64,000 nt of DNA. It comes from Halegenticoccus soli. GTDB lineage: Archaea > Halobacteriota > Halobacteria > Halobacteriales > Haloferacaceae. Made by a program: the position numbers and the translations under genes. Where the stretch lies: assembly GCF_002844195.1 (NCBI RefSeq), contig NZ_PEND01000007.1:62001-126000 (forward strand), read 5' to 3'. The notes below the pieces were generated by a model, which saw only the letters and a program-made list of their open reading frames with translations, searched no databases and was not told the origin of the DNA. This document shows, piece after piece, positions 19,716 through 52,506 of this stretch (within the stretch, counting starts at the first letter, position 1; every line of letters starts with the position of its first letter).

Positions 19716-20510
19716 TCAAACGCGTCGGTAGTCGCCGAGGCGTGTCCCGTCGAGCAAGTACGCCTCGCCGCGGTCGAGGCCCTCGGGGAGGAACGGCGCG
19801 AGGAACTCCTGTCCCTCGACGTTGATCCACGTCCCGCCCGAGCGCTCGTTGAACGCCGGAAACACGATCAGCTCGGGGTCGCCCCACGGCAGGTCGGCCG
19901 GATCGACGCCGCGGGCCTCCGCGAACGCCTCGCGCCGGAGCGGCCCGCGGAGCCACGCCCGCTCGACGCGGCTGCCCCCGACCGCGTCGCGGAGCTTCAC
20001 CGCCGGGTGTTCGTGGCCGACGCAGACCGTCCCGGCGGCGAGCACGTCCGGGGCGGGCCACGTGTGGCCGTGGGCGAACCCGGCGTCCCCGATCAGCGCG
20101 CCGTCGCCCGGCGTCACCTCGATCCGGTCGCCGAACGCCTCGTCGACGCCGCCGTCGTGGTTCCCCCTGACGAGCGTCAGGGGGACGCGCGCGGTCACGG
20201 CGTCGACGAGCGCCTCGATCTCCTCGCGCTCCGCCCCCCTCGGCCCGCCGATGCGGTGGCCGAGGTCGCCGAGGACGATCAGCCGATCCGGGCGGGTCCG
20301 ATCGAGCAGCGAGAGCACCCGCTCCCGGCGCCGGTCGGCGTCGCTCGCGAGTTCGACGCCGCGCTCGTAGCGGAGGGCGTCCTCGATGCCGGCGTGGTAG
20401 TCCGCGATCACGAGCGCCCGTTCGACCGGCGGTTCGGGCGCTTCACCGCCCCCCGCGCGCAGTTCCGCGACGGCGGCCGGTTCGCCCGGAACCGGCTCGA
20501 CCGCCGGCAT
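19716..20510 (-). CDS. rpe: Metallophosphoesterase of the rpa operon (COG1407-like)
   Basis: The 264-residue protein has the five calcineurin-like metal motifs: IADYHAG, VLGDLGHRI, VRGNHDGG, FAHGHTW and VGHEHPAV. This set and the length match the COG1407 family, which also includes bacterial PdeM. In Haloferax volcanii the third gene of the rpa1 operon encodes such a phosphoesterase, named rpe. Its start overlaps the rpap stop (TGATG at 20508-20512). It is probably a nuclease or phosphatase acting on DNA ends. Confidence 0.88.
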   Translation of the reverse strand: MPAVEPVPGEPAAVAELRAGGGEAPEPPVERALVIADYHAGIEDALRYERGVELASDADRRRERVLSLLDRTRPDRLIVLGDLGHRIGGPRGAEREEIEALVDAVTARVPLTLVRGNHDGGVDEAFGDRIEVTPGDGALIGDAGFAHGHTWPAPDVLAAGTVCVGHEHPAVKLRDAVGGSRVERAWLRGPLRREAFAEARGVDPADLPWGDPELIVFPAFNERSGGTWINVEGQEFLAPFLPEGLDRGEAYLLDGTRLGDYRRV

Positions 20511-22318
20511 CAGATCGCCTTGAGACGACCCTCGCCCGGTTCGTAGCACTTGCCGCTCATCAGGGCGTCCTGGATCGCGTCCTCGACCGCTCCCGGGTCG
20601 GCGCCGTGTCTGTCGACGAGCGCCGCCACGACCGCCTCTCGATCCGCACCGTCGCCGTCGTCGAGTTCCTCCATCGCGTCGACCGCGGCGTCTTCGAGGT
20701 CGACGTCAGCCGCCGGTTCGGCGGACTCGGCCGCGGGGTCCGGCTCCGTCGCCGTCGACCCCGTCGCTTCCGGCTCCGACTCCGACTCGGCGTCGGCGGA
20801 ACCGGACGGGGACTCCCCCTCGGCGGGTTCGGATCCCGGCTCGGCCGCCGTCCGGTCGAGCCCGTCCGATTCGGAATCGGCTTCGAGCGGTTCGCCTCCG
20901 GGTTCGTCGCCGGCGATCGCGGGCTCGGCCTCCGTCACCGACTCCCCGGCGTCGCCTCCCTCGGCCGACTCGGCGGCCTCTGCGCCCCCGTCGAGCTCGT
21001 CAGCGCCGGGCACGTCGATGTCGGCCTCGCCGGGCTCGCCGACCTCCGACCCCGTGGAGAACTCGGTTCCGAACTCCTCTCTGACCTCGCGGCGCTCCTC
21101 CTCGTCGAGCTCGTAGAGGTCGCCGTCGTCGAAGTCCCCGAGCCCCTCCGCGGAGTCGAGGTCAGACCCGCCGCCGTCGAAGTCGCCAAGCCCGTCGTCT
21201 TCGGCGGACGACGGGGTCGGGTCGGCTCCGTTCGATTCGGTCGACGGTTCGCTCGTCGCGTCCGCCTTCGCCGTCCCTTCCGTCTCGCTCGCCGCGTCCG
21301 CATCGGTCGTCGCCTCGGTGTCGGTCGTCGCCGCTTCGTTTTCGGTCCCGGCGGCCGCGGTCACTTCCGCACCGGCGTCGGCCGCGGCGACCTCGGTCGG
21401 CTCCGACTCGGCGGCTTCGTCGTCGAAAGCGGGTTCGGCTTCGCCCGTCGCTTCCGCCTCGGCCGCTTCGGTCGCGGTCTCGGTCCCGGTCCCGATCTCT
21501 GTCTCGGACTCGATCGCGGACTCGGACTCGGTCGCGGCACCCGTCGGATCGTCGTCCCGGTCAGCGGTGGCCGAGCCGAGATCGAACTCGGCGGTCTCGG
21601 GGAGCGGTCCCAGCGTCGCCTCGCCGCCTTCGTCCGGCGCGAGTTCCAGCGGGCGGACGCCGTCGCGTTCGCCGGCCACGACGGCGAGCGCGTCCGCCGC
21701 GAGTCGCCTGACGGCCTCCAGGTACGCCGTGGTCGTCCCGTAGTGCTCGATGGCGAGCGGGATCCCCGCGGCGAGCGGCGCGGGAACGCCCCGGTCGAGG
21801 AGCGCCTCCCGGAGGTCGTCGCCGCGCAGGTCGGCGTCGAGCGCCGCGGCGAAGACGCCGACCCGGCGGAGCGTCGCCTCGGCGGCGGAGACGACCCAGC
21901 GGTCGCGCGTGCCGGCGTCGACCGCGTTCAGGCTCTCCGGGCGGACCGACGTGTACACGCGGTTCGAATCCTCCGGCTCGAAGGTCCGGGCCTTGCCGGT
22001 CAGCGCGACGAACGCGGGCGGCGACGTGCGGTCGAGGAAGGCCATCGCCTCGGGCTGGTACTGCCCGGCGTAGGTGACGAACGCCCCGGTGGGGTCGACG
22101 ACGCGGCCGCGGAGCACGTCCTCGCTCACCGATTCGACCTCCGTCAGCACGCCGACCGCGAACAGCCGGTTCACGCGCAGTCCCGTCGGGGTGACGACGT
22201 AGTTCGGCGCGCGCTCCTCGTCGCTCTCGGAGTACGACAGGGTGGCGTCGTCGTACTCGGCGGCGAACAGGCGGTAGGCCACCTCGCGCCGCCCCGGGCC
22301 GCTCCCGTCGGCGCTCAC
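20510..22318 (-). CDS. rpap1: RPA-associated protein with long acidic low-complexity tract
   Basis: The 602-residue protein matches haloarchaeal RPAP, the partner of RPA in single-stranded DNA binding. Residues 1-240 form the conserved N-terminal part (AYRLFAAEYDDATLSYSESD and later strands). Roughly 245-545 are low-complexity Glu/Asp/Ser/Thr/Ala/Gly. This tract is interrupted by a conserved-looking stretch DLYELDEEERREVREEFGTE. The last 50 residues resemble a winged helix (REAVVAALVDRHGADPGAVE). The start is GTG at 22318 in a GTGA overlap with rpa. No ATG fits. Confidence 0.87.
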   Translation of the reverse strand: MSADGSGPGRREVAYRLFAAEYDDATLSYSESDEERAPNYVVTPTGLRVNRLFAVGVLTEVESVSEDVLRGRVVDPTGAFVTYAGQYQPEAMAFLDRTSPPAFVALTGKARTFEPEDSNRVYTSVRPESLNAVDAGTRDRWVVSAAEATLRRVGVFAAALDADLRGDDLREALLDRGVPAPLAAGIPLAIEHYGTTTAYLEAVRRLAADALAVVAGERDGVRPLELAPDEGGEATLGPLPETAEFDLGSATADRDDDPTGAATESESAIESETEIGTGTETATEAAEAEATGEAEPAFDDEAAESEPTEVAAADAGAEVTAAAGTENEAATTDTEATTDADAASETEGTAKADATSEPSTESNGADPTPSSAEDDGLGDFDGGGSDLDSAEGLGDFDDGDLYELDEEERREVREEFGTEFSTGSEVGEPGEADIDVPGADELDGGAEAAESAEGGDAGESVTEAEPAIAGDEPGGEPLEADSESDGLDRTAAEPGSEPAEGESPSGSADAESESEPEATGSTATEPDPAAESAEPAADVDLEDAAVDAMEELDDGDGADREAVVAALVDRHGADPGAVEDAIQDALMSGKCYEPGEGRLKAI

Positions 22319-23601
22319 GCGCCCACCTCCCGGTCGCCGACCGCCGCGAGGAGTTCCCCGGCGCGTTCCGCGGCGTCCTCGTCGGACTCCTCGAACTCGG
22401 TCGTGTCGAGGTTCGCGCCGTACTCGTCGACCGAGAGGTTCCCGCGGACGCGGAACTCCCGGCCGACGATCGTCTCCGCGATGTCGTCGGTCACGACCTC
22501 CTTGTCCATCGCCTCGCGGGCCGCCTCCTTGGCCTCCGAGAGGGTGCCGCCGTACACCTCCTCGGTGAGGTCGGCGTCGAGGACGACGGTCACGGTGTCG
22601 GTGCCGTCGTCGAAGATCGCCTTCACGCGGAGGTCGTCCTCGCCCTCGACCGCGCCGTGGCTCCGACACTGGCCGTTCTGGATGACGCGGCCGCACTCGG
22701 GGCAGCGCTCGATGAGCCCGGAGCCGTCGCGGACCTCGAGCACGTTGCCGACGAGTTCGACGTCGAACATCCCGCCGCTGCCGACCGCCTCTGCGACGGA
22801 CAGCCGGGGCGCGGACTCCCTCACGTCGACCGGCTCGGACAGCGGCGTCACGGTCGTGAACTCCGAGAGGTTGACCGACGGGACGCCGCGGAACTCGCGG
22901 ACGTACACGCCTTCGAGCCGCAGGTCCGCGCCCTCGGTCACCTCGTCGTGGGGGTTCCAGTCGGTGAACGGCAGCCGCGCGGTCCCGTCGGCGACGACGC
23001 CGGAGAGGATCTCCGTCTCGCCGTCGCGGCCGTCGATGGTCCGCCGTTCGACCTCCAGCACCCGGACCTCGACGTTCCGGCCGCGGTCGCCGGGTTCGAG
23101 GTCGAGGAGCGTCGAGTCGCCGCCGACGGGGTACTCGACCTCGACGGGGTCCGACTCCATCGCCACGGAGGTGCTCTCGCCGAGGTTGAGCTCCGGTTCG
23201 CCGTCCCACTCGCGGACCGAGGCGTTGCCGACGGTGATCGAGTCGCCCGGCTCGAAGCCGAAGTCCTGCCACGCGGTGTAGGAGATCTTGCCGGTCGGAT
23301 CGGCCAGTTCGCCCTCCCGGATGACCCGCTCTTCGCCCTGGTACCGGATGGAGCGCCGTCCGACGGTGAGCACGCGGGCGGTGACGGTGACGTTGCCGCT
23401 CTCGGGCGTGATCTCGGCGACGTCCTTCGTCGACGGCGCCGCGCTCCCGGAGCTTCCGCCGCCGTGCTTCCGGCGGACGCTCTGTTTGGCTTCCTCGATC
23501 GGAACGCTGTACTGCAGTAGGTTCTGTAGGTCGCGTTTGACCTCCTCCTTGTCGACGCCGAGGTCGGAGGCGAGTTCCTCGGCATGATCGTCTACCTGCA
23601 T
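22315..23601 (-). CDS. rpa1: Replication protein A, single-stranded DNA-binding protein
   Basis: The 428-residue protein has three OB-fold regions (for example around SGNVTVTARVLTVGRRSIRY and RTIDGRDGETEILSGVVADG) and a zinc finger, CPECGRVIQNGQCRSHG, near residue 295. Size, finger and the following rpap and rpe genes match the rpa1 operon of Haloferax volcanii rather than the shorter rpa3 type. It binds single-stranded DNA in replication and repair. The ATG at 23601 is 24 nt from a clear TATA element. Confidence 0.93.
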   Translation of the reverse strand: MQVDDHAEELASDLGVDKEEVKRDLQNLLQYSVPIEEAKQSVRRKHGGGSSGSAAPSTKDVAEITPESGNVTVTARVLTVGRRSIRYQGEERVIREGELADPTGKISYTAWQDFGFEPGDSITVGNASVREWDGEPELNLGESTSVAMESDPVEVEYPVGGDSTLLDLEPGDRGRNVEVRVLEVERRTIDGRDGETEILSGVVADGTARLPFTDWNPHDEVTEGADLRLEGVYVREFRGVPSVNLSEFTTVTPLSEPVDVRESAPRLSVAEAVGSGGMFDVELVGNVLEVRDGSGLIERCPECGRVIQNGQCRSHGAVEGEDDLRVKAIFDDGTDTVTVVLDADLTEEVYGGTLSEAKEAAREAMDKEVVTDDIAETIVGREFRVRGNLSVDEYGANLDTTEFEESDEDAAERAGELLAAVGDREVGA

Positions 23602-25947: not shown

Positions 25948-26037
25948 GGGAGAGAGGAGGCGAACGCGGGGCTAAACGGTTGCGTCGACGTATCAGCGGG
26001 CGGGAAAGCTAAGTAGCGGGGCGGCCACACGGTCGGT

Positions 26038-26406
26038 ATGACCGAGGAGTTCGACTGCACGACGCACATCGAGGAGGGGCGCACCGAGATCACCGTCTCG
26101 GGGTCCCGCGAGGTCGCCGTCGTCGTCCGCTCGGCGTCGGGCGAGCGCATCTACCTGCCGCCGGAGGGGTTCGACCGCGATCGCGACGCCGACAGCCCGT
26201 ATCAGTCCGCCCGCGACGACAGCCCCTACCAGTCGGTGAAGAGCGACAGTCCGTACCAGTCGGTCAGCGACGACAGCCCGTACCAATCCGTCCGCGACGA
26301 CAGCCCCTACCAGTCGCTCACCCGGAGTCCCGGCGTCACGATGACCGAAAACGGGTTCCGGATCGTCCACCCGGAGGCGGTCGACGAGTTCCAGGTGTTC
26401 AGGTAG
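26038..26406 (+). CDS. Small protein with five DSPYQS repeats
   Basis: The 122-residue protein has a beta-like N-terminal domain (TTHIEEGRTEITVSGSREVA, then RIYLPPEG), followed by five 9-residue repeats of the form DSPYQSxxD (residues 52-96), and a conserved C-terminal strand ENGFRIVHPEAVDEFQVFR. The repeats are rich in Pro, Tyr, Gln and Ser, resembling a flexible sticky or binding tail. No function is known to me. It converges on a GT4 glycosyltransferase gene 57 bp downstream, which may be coincidence. Confidence 0.78.
   Translation: MTEEFDCTTHIEEGRTEITVSGSREVAVVVRSASGERIYLPPEGFDRDRDADSPYQSARDDSPYQSVKSDSPYQSVSDDSPYQSVRDDSPYQSLTRSPGVTMTENGFRIVHPEAVDEFQVFR
26191..26325 (+). repeat. Five tandem 27-bp units inside the DSPYQS gene
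   Basis: The units begin at 26191, 26218, 26245, 26272 and 26299. Each starts GACAG(C/T)CC and encodes DSPYQS plus three variable residues. Third-position differences between units (TAT/TAC, CAG/CAA, TCC/TCG) show that the peptide, not the DNA, has been kept. Confidence 0.9.
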
Positions 26407-38773: not shown

Positions 38774-40438
38774 ATGAGCCGTCGGCGCGGATCGATCGCC
38801 GTCGCGGTCGACCTGGCGTTCGTCGCGCTGCTCGTCGCGGCTTCGGTCGTCACGGGGTTCGGCGGCCTGATAGTGTACGCGGTGCCGACCGAACCGGCGG
38901 GGGACGGGTACGGGCTCGACTCGCTGTACGTCCTCGAACCCCCCGGCGCGGACGGCGCGACCGTACCGCCGCCCGGAAGCGGCGGGAATCCGGGCGCGGA
39001 GCGGCGGTTCGTCGCCGGCCTCGAAGCGATCGGGGCGACCGAGCTCCACGAGCGCGGCGTCACCGGCGAGGGCGTGAAAGTCGGCGTCATCGGCAGCGGC
39101 TTCGATCCCCGACACCCGTCGATTGCGGGCAACGTGGCCGCCCGCGATCGTATCGACGCGGACGCGTCGGACGCGGCCGACGAGACCGCCCACGACACGG
39201 CCGTCGCCGAGATCGTCTCCCGGACCGCGCCGGGCGCGGACCTCTACCTCGTGGAGATCGGAACGGAGCCGACGCCGGAGCGGTACGCCGCCGCGATCGA
39301 GTGGCTCCTCGCGAACGACGTCGACGTGATCGTCGACTCCGGGAGCTACTTCCCCCCGACGATGGAGGGGATGGACCGGATCACCGACGCCGCCGACAAC
39401 GCGTCGGCGCAGGGAGTCGTGTTCGTCACCTCGGCCGGGAACTACGCCGAGCGACACTGGGCCGGGACGGACGCCGGGGAGGGATGGGCGTCCTTCGCTT
39501 CCGGAATCGAGGCGAACCCCCTCGCCGGCGGCGATCCGGTTCGGGGACGCGTCTCGCTCCGCCTCTACTGGAACTCGTCGGCGGATTACGACCTGTACCT
39601 CTATCGCCACGTCCGGGGCGGAGAGGACCCCGTCGTCGCGAAGTCGACCCGGCGGCAGTCCCGAAACGACAGCCTCCCGGCCTCCGAAGCGATCGACGCC
39701 GCGGTGCCGAAGGGGACGTACTACGTCGCCGTGTACGCCCGCGCCGGCGCGGCGAACGACACCCACACCCACCTCCGCCTGTTCTCGACGCGCCACTCGC
39801 TCGGATACGCGACGCCCGAGGGGAGCCTGGTCGCGCCGGCGACGAGCGATCGGGTCATCGCGGTCGGCGCGTTCGACGCCGACGGCGGCGCGACCCGCGC
39901 TTACAGCTCCCGCGGCGCGTCGGCCGGCGAGGTCGACGTCGGCGCGCCCGACGGCGTCGAGACGGCCGTCGCGGGACGGTTCTACGGCACGTCGGCAGCC
40001 GCGCCCTTCGTCGCCGGAACCGCGGCGCTGATGGAGGCGAGCGCCGGCGATCTCTCCCCCGAGGAGACGCGGCGAATCCTCCACGAGACGGCCCGCGCGT
40101 CGGACGGCGCGAAGCGGATCGACGCGCTCGCCGCCGTCGAGGCGGCGTCGGGTGCGGTCCGGCGACCGGCCGAAGCGTACGACGCGACGTCCGACGGGAA
40201 CGGGACCGCCGCCTCGACGGCCGCCTCCGACGGGAACGAGACCACCGCCTCGACGGCAGCCTCCGACGAGAGCGAGACCGCCGGCGCGAACGCCGACGCG
40301 AATACCGCGGACGGCGCGCCGGAGAACGAGTCAGCCCGCGATTCGGCGAAGACGACCGCAGAGCGGCGGGCGTCCGCGGGCGAGTCTGCCGCCCCGGAGC
40401 ACGGAACGGGATGCGACGGAACGGCGGCGTCCGGCTGA
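38774..40438 (+). CDS. S8 (subtilisin-like) peptidase homologue lacking the catalytic Asp
   Basis: The 554-residue protein has an N-terminal membrane helix (VDLAFVALLVAASVVTGFGG) and a subtilase domain from about residue 85. The catalytic Ser motif YGTSAAAPFVAGTAALM (near 406) and the oxyanion Asn in VFVTSAGNYAE are present. The His region is AHDTAVAEIV, with His140 but not the usual HGTH. The D-T/S-G motif reads VGVIGSGFDPRHP, where Gly replaces Asp. It may be inactive or use Asp111. The last 90 residues are a low-complexity tail with 12-residue repeats. It follows a membrane-bound regulator. Confidence 0.85.
   Translation: MSRRRGSIAVAVDLAFVALLVAASVVTGFGGLIVYAVPTEPAGDGYGLDSLYVLEPPGADGATVPPPGSGGNPGAERRFVAGLEAIGATELHERGVTGEGVKVGVIGSGFDPRHPSIAGNVAARDRIDADASDAADETAHDTAVAEIVSRTAPGADLYLVEIGTEPTPERYAAAIEWLLANDVDVIVDSGSYFPPTMEGMDRITDAADNASAQGVVFVTSAGNYAERHWAGTDAGEGWASFASGIEANPLAGGDPVRGRVSLRLYWNSSADYDLYLYRHVRGGEDPVVAKSTRRQSRNDSLPASEAIDAAVPKGTYYVAVYARAGAANDTHTHLRLFSTRHSLGYATPEGSLVAPATSDRVIAVGAFDADGGATRAYSSRGASAGEVDVGAPDGVETAVAGRFYGTSAAAPFVAGTAALMEASAGDLSPEETRRILHETARASDGAKRIDALAAVEAASGAVRRPAEAYDATSDGNGTAASTAASDGNETTASTAASDESETAGANADANTADGAPENESARDSAKTTAERRASAGESAAPEHGTGCDGTAASG
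40190..40282 (+). repeat. 36-bp tandem repeat in the S8 gene tail
   Basis: Units at 40190-40225 and 40226-40261, with a partial third to 40282, encode SDGNGTAASTAA, SDGNETTASTAA and SDESETA. The repeat makes a Ser/Thr/Asp-rich stalk that could be glycosylated if outside the cell. Confidence 0.85.
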
Positions 40439-50622: not shown

Positions 50623-52506
50623 TTACTCGGTCGACGACGGCTCCGGCCCGTCGTCGCTCTCGTCGGTGTTTCCGTCGTCGCCCTCGTCGGCGCTGTCGTC
50701 GCCCCCAGTGGCACCCTCGTCGGCGATCGCGTCGTCCCCCTCGTCGATTCTGCCGGCTCCGTCTCGGTTCGCGTCCGGGTCGCCCCCGCGGTTTCCGCCC
50801 TCCGGGCCGCTTCCGTCTCCGCCGATTTCCCGGCCGTCTTCGCCATCACCGTCCTCGACGCTCTCTACGTCTTCGCCGCTCTCTTCGCCATCGCCGTCCT
50901 CGCCGCTCTCTACGTCTTCGCCGTCTTCGCCGTTCGTCTCCCCCGACTCGGCGGCCGCCGCGACCCCGTCCGCGGTGTCCGCCTCCGCGACCCCGTCCTC
51001 GCCGTCCGCCTCCCGAGCTTCGACGAGCGAGACGATGCGCTCTCGGACCGCCGGACGCTCGACCGTCCCGGAGGCGGTCCGCGGCAGCTCCCCCTCCTCG
51101 AAGGCGATCGTCCGCGGGAGCTTGTAGCCGGCCAGCCGCTCGCGGCAGTGCGCCTCGACCGCGTCGGCGGTCAGGTCGGGGTCGTCGCGGACGACGAGCG
51201 CCGCGACCCGCTCGCCCCACTCGTCGTCCGGGAGCCCCACGACCGCGGCCTCGGCCACGCCGGGGCAGTCCCGGAGCGCCTCCGCGACCTCGCCGGGATC
51301 GACGTTCTCGCCGCCCGTGATGATCCGGTCGTCGATCCGGCCGAGCACGTACACGCGGCCGGCCTCGTCGCGGTAGCCCACGTCGCCCGTCCGGAGGCCG
51401 CGAGGCCCGAAGGCGTCCGCCGTCGCCTCCGGGTTCCCGTAGTAGCCGGGCGAGACCGTCGCCCCCGAGACGACGAACTCGCCGATCTCGCCGGGAGCGA
51501 CCTCGTCACCCTCGTCGCCGACGACGGCGAGGTCGGTCCACAGGAGCGGCCGGCCGACGGTCCCCTCGAACTCGAACGCCTCCCCGGGCGAGGCGGTGGC
51601 AATCTGCGACGCCGTCTCCGTCATCCCGTAGGTCGGACACACCGGGACGGAGTAGTCGCGGCACCGCCGGACGAGCGACCGCGGCGCGGGCGCCCCGCCG
51701 AGCAGGACGAACCGCAGCGAGTCCGAGAGCGTCCCGCGGCTGTCCAGCATCCGCCGGAGCATCGTCGGCACGAGCGAGATCCCCGTCGCGCCGTACGCGC
51801 CGACGTCGTCCGCGGTTCCCCCCGGGTCGAACGACGTGCGGAGGACGACCGCCGTGCCGTAGAGCGCCGACCGGTACAGGGGGGCGAGCCCGCCCATGTG
51901 GTACAGCGAGAGCGCGACGAGCCAGCGGTCGTCGGGCGCGACGCCGAGGCGGAACGCCGAGGCGACGGCGCTGTGAAAGACGTTGCCCGCCGTGAGCACG
52001 ACGGCCTTCGGGGCTCCGGTCGTCCCCGAGGTGAAGAGCATCGCCAGCGGGTCGTCGTGCTCCCACGACGCGGGGTCGAACGCGACCGGCTCGGCCGCCG
52101 ACAGCGACGCGACTCCCCCGCTTTCCGGGTCGTCCACCGACGCCGCGGGCACGCCGCCCGCGGCCTCGACCGCCCGCGCCTCCGTCTCCGCCCCGCAGAC
52201 GAGCGCCGTCAGGTCCGCGGTCTCGATCTGATCGGCCAGTTCGGTCGCGGTGAGCCGATCCGAGAGGGGAACGAGCGTCGCGCCGAGGCGCATCGCCGCG
52301 TGGACGAGTCGGACGTAGACCACCCGCGACGGCAACAGCACCCCGAGATGATCCCCGGCGGTCACTCCGAGCGCGGCGAGCCGACCGGCCGTCCGCTCGA
52401 CCGCGGCGTCGAGTTCGGCGTAGTCCCACTCCCGACCGGTGTCGGCCGCGACGAGCGCCGTCGAATCCGGCGTCGCCCGCGCCCGGTGAGTGAGCCAGTC
52501 GTTCAT
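50623..52506 (-). CDS. menE: MenE-like acyl-CoA ligase with long acidic tail
   Basis: The 627-residue protein is an AMP-forming adenylating enzyme. Motifs are AMLFTSGTTGAPKAVVLTAG, YGMTETASQIA and LRTGDVGYRDEAGRVYVLGR, with the last Lys in GYKLPRTIAFEEG. Haloarchaeal annotation usually calls this o-succinylbenzoate-CoA ligase, for menaquinone. No other men gene is visible, so the substrate is uncertain. Residues beyond about 497 form a 130-residue acidic low-complexity tail with a 15-residue repeat, unusual for the family. Confidence 0.82.
   Translation of the reverse strand: MNDWLTHRARATPDSTALVAADTGREWDYAELDAAVERTAGRLAALGVTAGDHLGVLLPSRVVYVRLVHAAMRLGATLVPLSDRLTATELADQIETADLTALVCGAETEARAVEAAGGVPAASVDDPESGGVASLSAAEPVAFDPASWEHDDPLAMLFTSGTTGAPKAVVLTAGNVFHSAVASAFRLGVAPDDRWLVALSLYHMGGLAPLYRSALYGTAVVLRTSFDPGGTADDVGAYGATGISLVPTMLRRMLDSRGTLSDSLRFVLLGGAPAPRSLVRRCRDYSVPVCPTYGMTETASQIATASPGEAFEFEGTVGRPLLWTDLAVVGDEGDEVAPGEIGEFVVSGATVSPGYYGNPEATADAFGPRGLRTGDVGYRDEAGRVYVLGRIDDRIITGGENVDPGEVAEALRDCPGVAEAAVVGLPDDEWGERVAALVVRDDPDLTADAVEAHCRERLAGYKLPRTIAFEEGELPRTASGTVERPAVRERIVSLVEAREADGEDGVAEADTADGVAAAAESGETNGEDGEDVESGEDGDGEESGEDVESVEDGDGEDGREIGGDGSGPEGGNRGGDPDANRDGAGRIDEGDDAIADEGATGGDDSADEGDDGNTDESDDGPEPSSTE
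50861..50922 (-). repeat. 45-bp repeat in the MenE-like tail
   Basis: The 17-base string beginning CTCTCTACG occurs at 50861 and again at 50906, a period of 45 bp. On the coding strand the units encode GEDVESGEDGDGEES and GEDVESVEDGDGEDG. The repeat lies in the acidic tail and shows recent slippage. Confidence 0.8.

Follow-up and report, generated by a model that had tools for sequence, protein, structure and literature searches.

The window analysed here is a 64,000-nucleotide stretch of the genome of the haloarchaeon Halegenticoccus soli. It carries a short open reading frame with five DSPYQS repeats, which converges with a gene for a glycosyltransferase of family GT4 lying 57 bp away (Table 1). 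The DSPYQS cores begin at residues 52, 61, 70, 79 and 88, and Tandem Repeats Finder (TRF) reports a 27-nt unit present 4.7 times (26190-26315, score 152). An earlier note on this DNA had claimed that the five repeats keep their peptide and vary in third codon positions. This was borne out by TRF and by pairwise comparison of the five cores (10 pairs), in which we counted 24 synonymous differences over 33.3 synonymous sites (pS 0.72) and 0 nonsynonymous differences over 146.7 sites. Since the differences are all synonymous, the codon comparison indicates that the DSPYQS peptide is under selection and that the copies are not the product of a recent DNA duplication. The back-translated DSPYQS pattern has seven exact matches in the 4.6-Mb host genome, five of them in these repeats, and the reversed control pattern has 0 in the same genome. 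The other two matches are one identical 17-mer (C1:895665-895681 and C12:16249-16265 of host genome G000), whose occurrence on two contigs perhaps reflects a mobile element.

Repetitive tails were seen in two further frames of the window, both named by eye. A subtilase-like frame (38774-40438, + strand) ends in a tail rich in Ser, Thr, Asn and Asp with a 36-nt tandem repeat (40190-40283), and an acyl-CoA-ligase-like frame (50623-52506, - strand) has a long acidic C-terminal tail of Gly/Glu/Asp repeats (50648-51013).

Table 1. Features of the DUF7510-GT4 locus, with positions in the window
Feature	Position	Strand	Basis
DUF7510 gene, 122 aa	26038..26406	+	Pfam PF24350, E 6.8e-40, 136.1 bits, cut-off 27
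Predicted beta-sandwich, N-terminal half, residues 1-45, ending IYLPPEGF	26038..26172	+	AlphaFold2; Y39 and T16 identical in 64/64
Predicted disordered loop, five DSPYQS units, spacing 9 residues	26191..26316	+	TRF, pLDDT, codon comparison
Predicted beta-sandwich, C-terminal half, residues 99-122	26332..26403	+	AlphaFold2; H111 identical in 64/64
CTAAGTA box, 29 nt before ATG	26009..26015	+	TAA[GA][TC] enrichment and upstream alignment
Convergent GT4 glycosyltransferase gene, 350 aa	26464..27516	-	PF00534 1.2e-31 and others; co-occurrence

The repeat protein belongs to the Pfam family DUF7510, whose profile matches it over residues 6-122, well above the family cut-off; the Pfam entry gives the function as unknown. 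Beside DUF7510, no other Pfam family matched the protein at E<=0.1, and NCBIfam gave no match at E<=1. Protein searches found the family in 28 of 60 relatives, and a profile search found it in 118 of the 292 genomes of the class, distributed over 25 of 78 genera. Additional matches of 18.5-19.1 bits appeared in five genomes; the one that was inspected (L140 in G054) is a different-looking frame of 223 aa without [ST]PY repeats, and it was set aside. A literature search by family name, by accession PF24350 and by the repeat returned no paper about the family. Of 85 distinct sequences upstream of DUF7510 genes, 61 contain TAA[GA][TC] between -33 and -21 relative to the start codon, 47 of them in the form TAAGT; none of the 85 has it in a control stretch from -50 to -38. 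The upstream set contains only M starts, and its start codons were chosen by rule, some probably wrongly; 24 of the 85 sequences have no box. A distance of this size between box and start fits a near-leaderless archaeal transcript, and the spacing therefore supports both the start codon of DUF7510 and a promoter of its own. We infer that CTAAGTA is the TATA-type element of such a transcript.

The structure was predicted with AlphaFold2 from 64 sequences (mean pLDDT 69.1). The strands of residues 6-39 and 100-121 come together in a single domain predicted with confidence, and the repeats form a loop of low confidence that connects the two parts. Block means of pLDDT are 82-92 for residues 1-40, 42-44 for residues 51-90 and 87-92 for residues 101-122; the predicted strands span residues 6-12, 15-21, 27-32 and 35-39 in the N-terminal part and 100-102, 106-111 and 115-121 in the C-terminal part. 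The repeats had been described before as lying between a beta-like domain and a conserved end. Their position agrees with this, but the flanks are predicted to be one domain rather than two separate parts. The same architecture was obtained in a second model, for a Halorubrum member with a short loop (53 sequences, mean pLDDT 74.1). In structural comparison with VIA-align, the two models reached best Z scores of 6.0 and 5.9, and the top rows were a mixture of designed Ig-like proteins, cytokine receptors, antibodies, the carbohydrate-binding module CBM56 and a chitin-binding domain. Foldseek found no match for the DUF7510 model in the PDB or among viral models at E<=0.001, and the family profile matched solved structures with a best E of only 0.58. 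We therefore read the predicted fold as a small Ig-like beta-sandwich and nothing more specific.

Conservation within the family was examined in 64 aligned members. In the folded part T16, Y39, P41, G99, G106 and H111 are invariant, and so is the loop tyrosine column Y91. Y39 (26152-26154) lies in the folded strand IYLPP and could itself be functional. The repeats themselves follow a looser rule. If orthologues had lacked them, the earlier note would have counted this against its claim; on the contrary, each of 60 nonredundant linkers contains 2-8 tyrosines, and of the 256 tyrosines in these linkers 88% have Pro at -1 and 94% have Ser or Thr at -2. The linker set was obtained from 86 sequences by a 90% identity filter (domain parts), with the fragment L108 excluded and L095 and L096 missing. 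L101, in which the motif was unrecognised, was lost from another set before counting. What varies is the sequence and the number of the units, with SPYQS, SPYEGI, TPYDRQ and SPYST in different lineages and 1-8 [ST][PSA]Y units per protein in the 64 proteins. Because the units vary by lineage, the family constant is [ST]PY and not DSPYQS. By these counts, the tyrosine repeats are a trait of the whole DUF7510 family.

The preference for tyrosine in the loop is nearly exclusive. In 76 distinct loops, 279 residues follow [ST]P in a unit-like setting; 264 of these are Tyr and none is Phe or Trp. In L009, which has His at this position, a unit is plainly without its Tyr; the remaining 14 non-Tyr positions, judged by eye, seem to fall outside or between units. 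The aromatic residues of the 64 loops are 278 Tyr, 2 Phe and 0 Trp when the conserved PED-F junction is excluded; the linkers of the 60-linker count include this junction and thereby contain 49 Phe. The folded part shows an exchange of this kind at column 107, with Phe in 35 members and Tyr in 24. The near-exclusive use of Tyr in the loop, set against this exchange, suggests that the tyrosine hydroxyl is needed.

Two readings of the loop bear directly on these counts. Repeated tyrosines within a loop of low predicted order could act as stickers and spacers in phase separation, the condensation suggested in the earlier note; the near-absence of Phe and Trp argues against a merely aromatic sticker, the number of tyrosines per loop (2-8) also speaks against condensation, and we regard this reading as very unlikely. 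The hydroxyl could also serve as a site of phosphorylation or of another switch that regulates an enzyme, and the almost complete failure of Phe to replace Tyr would be expected in this case, with [ST]P-Y offering Ser or Thr sites in addition to Tyr. However, no protein kinase was found among the annotated neighbour genes, which represent a minority of the neighbour clusters (a kinase could be encoded elsewhere), and regulation of this kind appears unlikely.

If the loop tyrosines serve a partner, which protein might this be? The earlier note had proposed a search for co-occurring genes, and this search led to the convergent gene. Orthologues of the GT4 glycosyltransferase (E<=1e-60, the weakest at 2.5e-131) are present in 118 of 292 genomes, and these are exactly the genomes that carry DUF7510. 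In 114 of the 118 the two matches start within 3 kb of each other. The exceptions are G035 (3.6 kb), G010 and G105, which keep both genes at distances of 169 kb and 230 kb, respectively, and G303, in which a DUF7510 fragment and GT4 both lie at contig starts. We prefer this figure to that from the segment collection, in which GT4 was near DUF7510 in 68 of 73 segments, because some segments represent one genome from two collections. The pair is also jointly absent within genera that otherwise have it: 14 genomes of g46 carry it and G247 does not, four of g62 carry it and G165 and G169 do not, and one of g72 carries it and G147 and G202 do not. The family Bac_rhodopsin, used as a yardstick, has a distribution that differs from that of DUF7510 in 23 of 60 genomes. 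A naive figure for the co-occurrence, with a log10 of about -84, takes no account of relatedness and cannot serve as a P value, since the genomes are not independent. One may ask whether common ancestry or a shared niche would produce such a pattern without joint function, since the genomes are related and the glycoside hydrolase genes described below mark sugar-using lineages. The exact identity of the two sets, the proximity of the genes, the retention of both in the two unlinked genomes and their joint absence within three genera make this very improbable. We consider it highly probable that DUF7510 acts in the same pathway as GT4. The earlier suggestion that the repeats may bind a partner many times has thus gained a candidate partner, and the binding itself is putative.

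The GT4 protein has the Pfam domains PF00534 and PF13439, which place it in the GT1/GT4 group. Residues G18-G19, R192, K197, E269 and E277 are shared by at least 97% of 64 orthologues, and E269 with E277 gives the E-x7-E motif of GT4 glycosyltransferases. Because residues of catalytic type are kept, the enzyme looks active. Its top NCBIfam model is glgA_Coryne. GlgM/GlgA-type synthases (TIGR02149, PDB 6tvp) are among its nearest named models, yet the glycogen synthase model TIGR02149 scores 97.7 bits against a cut-off of 302.4, and TIGR02095 scores 49.4 bits against 328.45. A partial match to PF08323 (28.7 bits over 43 of 239 positions) is above its cut-off of 22.7 bits. Among PDB entries, Tll1590 comes first and 6tvp, an alpha-maltose-1-phosphate synthase, second, with PimA and MshA at similar strength. 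With TIGR02149 below its cut-off and Tll1590, PimA and MshA as strong as 6tvp, the donor and product of GT4 are not fixed by these matches.

More specific information comes from the genes with which the pair occurs. The 4-alpha-glucanotransferase GH77 is present in 125 of 292 genomes, namely the 118 pair genomes and seven others. The amylase MalA is present at E<=1e-150 in 140, the 118 and 22 others, and 120 genomes pass its curated cut-off. Both overlaps with the 118 were judged by reading the lists, with which the GH77 total of 125 agrees. GH15 was found in 33 of 60 relatives, including all 28 with DUF7510. DUF7510 is flanked by GH15, MalA, GT4 and GH77 in L038, L093, L096, L097, L103 and L105 (with one extra gene between in L103), and at least one of GH15, MalA and GH77 is near DUF7510 in 13 of 73 segments, where neighbour clusters are named from their representatives. 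These 13 include L120 and L122 from the host's own family (G005, G019) and L093, L096, L097, L103 and L105 from family f4. The host genome has its MalA and GH15 genes side by side on contig C6, at about 24-31 kb, and its GH77 gene at 62 kb of that contig; DUF7510 and GT4 are on another, C7. Control searches covering DUF7510, GH77, MalA and GH15 found all four in Haloferax volcanii; our guess at the locus tags in that species is HVO_1339/HVO_1340. GH77 and MalA are present, with neither DUF7510 nor GT4, in G087, G165, G169, G201, G253, G262 and G273.

Two other neighbours were considered and rejected. An ssDNA-binding RPA-like gene (22315-23601, - strand, PF21473), a possible link to DNA replication, belongs to a cluster present in 41 of 73 segments and is divergent; the cluster is missing from f4, f6 and f12 loci and from some loci of the host's family (for example L120, L122 and L128), so that we set it aside as local synteny. 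Adjoining the gene is a frame (20510-22318, - strand) with a long low-complexity middle rich in Ala, Thr, Glu and Asp and with no Pfam match at E<=0.001. An NTP_transferase neighbour (L093) was considered as the donor enzyme, but it has a homologue in 292 of 292 genomes (E<=1e-75), and its presence is uninformative.

Known glucan-building enzymes were searched for in the 60 relatives. The full GT5 synthase domain PF08323 (E<=1e-10) and the branching enzyme GlgB (TIGR01515, E<=1e-40) were each found in 0 of 60, and GH57 in 3 of 60, all without DUF7510; no known branching enzyme was found. Because a GT5 synthase is absent from this set and GT4 is nested in the GH77/MalA genomes, GT4 is the most promising candidate for the absent synthase. 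Its polymer may lack branches, or these may be made by an enzyme outside those found. Since the DUF7510 and GT4 sets are identical, the genes usually adjacent, nested in GH77/MalA genomes and clustered with them in some loci, DUF7510 is very probably the partner of GT4 in alpha-glucan metabolism; that the pathway is one of alpha-glucan synthesis is probable. An excerpt of PMC11239784 describes the MalA of Haloarcula japonica as an alpha-amylase, intracellular according to a title cited there, that acts also on glycogen. According to a 2019 survey, glycogen storage had been reported for no halophilic archaeon (PMC6355812), and a review speculates that a GT4 enzyme may be an uncharacterised glycogen synthase in another archaeon (PMC11046441). 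No title or abstract returned by searches on haloarchaeal glycogen concerned a DUF7510-GT4 pair of this kind. A GT4 that glycosylates proteins or small solutes and has no part in storage glucan, with DUF7510 as its substrate or regulator, would be compatible with the breadth of the GT4 family and with the even strength of the structural matches. Both the nesting in GH77/MalA genomes and the joint cluster with GH15, MalA and GH77 in some loci argue against it, and we think it rather unlikely.

What could the tyrosine-bearing loop do for an alpha-glucan synthase? In the model that we propose, DUF7510 would act together with the retaining glycosyltransferase GT4, as is strongly supported, and would do so in alpha-glucan (maltodextrin- or glycogen-type) metabolism, as is well supported. 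The further steps are conjectural. GT4 would bind DUF7510 and be the alpha-glucan synthase; it would move glucose onto the loop tyrosines, each [ST]PY unit providing one start site, and then lengthen the chains, and the folded domain would hold the loop in position. DUF7510 would seed several chains together and remain in the core of the polymer. Taken as a whole, the statement that the loop tyrosines are glucosyl acceptors, and hence a primer, is our best guess but a tentative one, with a chance well below even. It would account for the strict use of Tyr, for a disordered loop whose unit number varies, and for the one-to-one pairing. Several points count against it: the glycogen-synthase score of GT4 far below its cut-off and the equally strong matches to Tll1590, PimA and MshA, the failure to find a known branching enzyme, the statement of the 2019 survey, the placing of GH15, MalA and GH77 on another contig of the host genome, and the presence of GH77 and MalA in genomes that lack the pair (7 and 22, respectively). 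In the linker comparison the Asp, Ser, Pro and Gln residues of the repeat unit are conserved as well as Tyr, which suits a docking motif equally; moreover, Ser could be the acceptor.

Docking is indeed the chief rival of the acceptor model. The [ST]PY motifs would bind several GT4 molecules with their tyrosines unmodified, and the sandwich would hold glucan or another enzyme. Starch- and glycogen-targeting proteins, which are CBM-bearing scaffolds, hold a glucan or an enzyme in this manner, and DUF7510 resembles them in having a small sandwich and a docking region beside a glucan synthase. The evidence for a partner is the same as for the primer, the range in unit number is what avidity predicts, D-S-P-Y-Q-S is conserved around the Tyr, and carbohydrate-binding modules appear among the best structural matches (CBM56, 6a6c, Z 5.5 and 5.3; chitin-binding domain, 2cwr, Z 5.9 and 5.5). 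However, these scores are tied with those of antibody, cytokine-receptor and designed domains, which points to an Ig-like sandwich only; the fold resemblance is unspecific, and no Pfam CBM family matched the protein at E<=0.1. Docking would account for the disorder, the copy number and the pairing, but not for the near-absolute preference for Tyr, since strict Tyr over Phe is not predicted for every docking motif. We consider a docking arm possible, though on balance doubtful and slightly less probable than the acceptor model.

Returning to the acceptor model, a known parallel is the eukaryotic glycogenin of family GT8, and the likeness lies in the proposed role only: a tyrosine acceptor that seeds an alpha-glucan beside a synthase. 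The acceptor of human glycogenin is given as Tyr195 in an excerpt of PMC11046441. Glycogenin has a GT8 catalytic domain; by contrast, the DUF7510 protein has no glycosyltransferase domain in Pfam searches, offers several tyrosines and would owe the catalysis to GT4. DUF7510 is therefore not a glycogenin, and by analogy it may work like the acceptor part of one. It is conceivable, though rather less than likely, that DUF7510 is the archaeal counterpart of glycogenin in the sense of a non-enzymatic multi-tyrosine primer, glucosylated in trans by GT4, whose roughly 1-8 units would determine how many chains a particle contains. A second parallel is found in the serine-rich-repeat adhesins, secreted proteins modified on Ser and Thr with GT4 glycosyltransferases encoded next door. 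They share with DUF7510 a repeat substrate and an adjoining GT4, but the conserved residue of DUF7510 is Tyr, and its N-terminus (MTEEFDCTTHIEE...) has no hydrophobic stretch.

The DUF7510 family was already catalogued, and what is new here is the proposed function. The seven genomes that have GH77 and MalA without the pair are natural controls for its role, and the strict pairing of DUF7510 with GT4 gives a gene to delete in the genetically tractable Haloferax volcanii. If the primer model holds, it would answer a question posed in PMC11046441.
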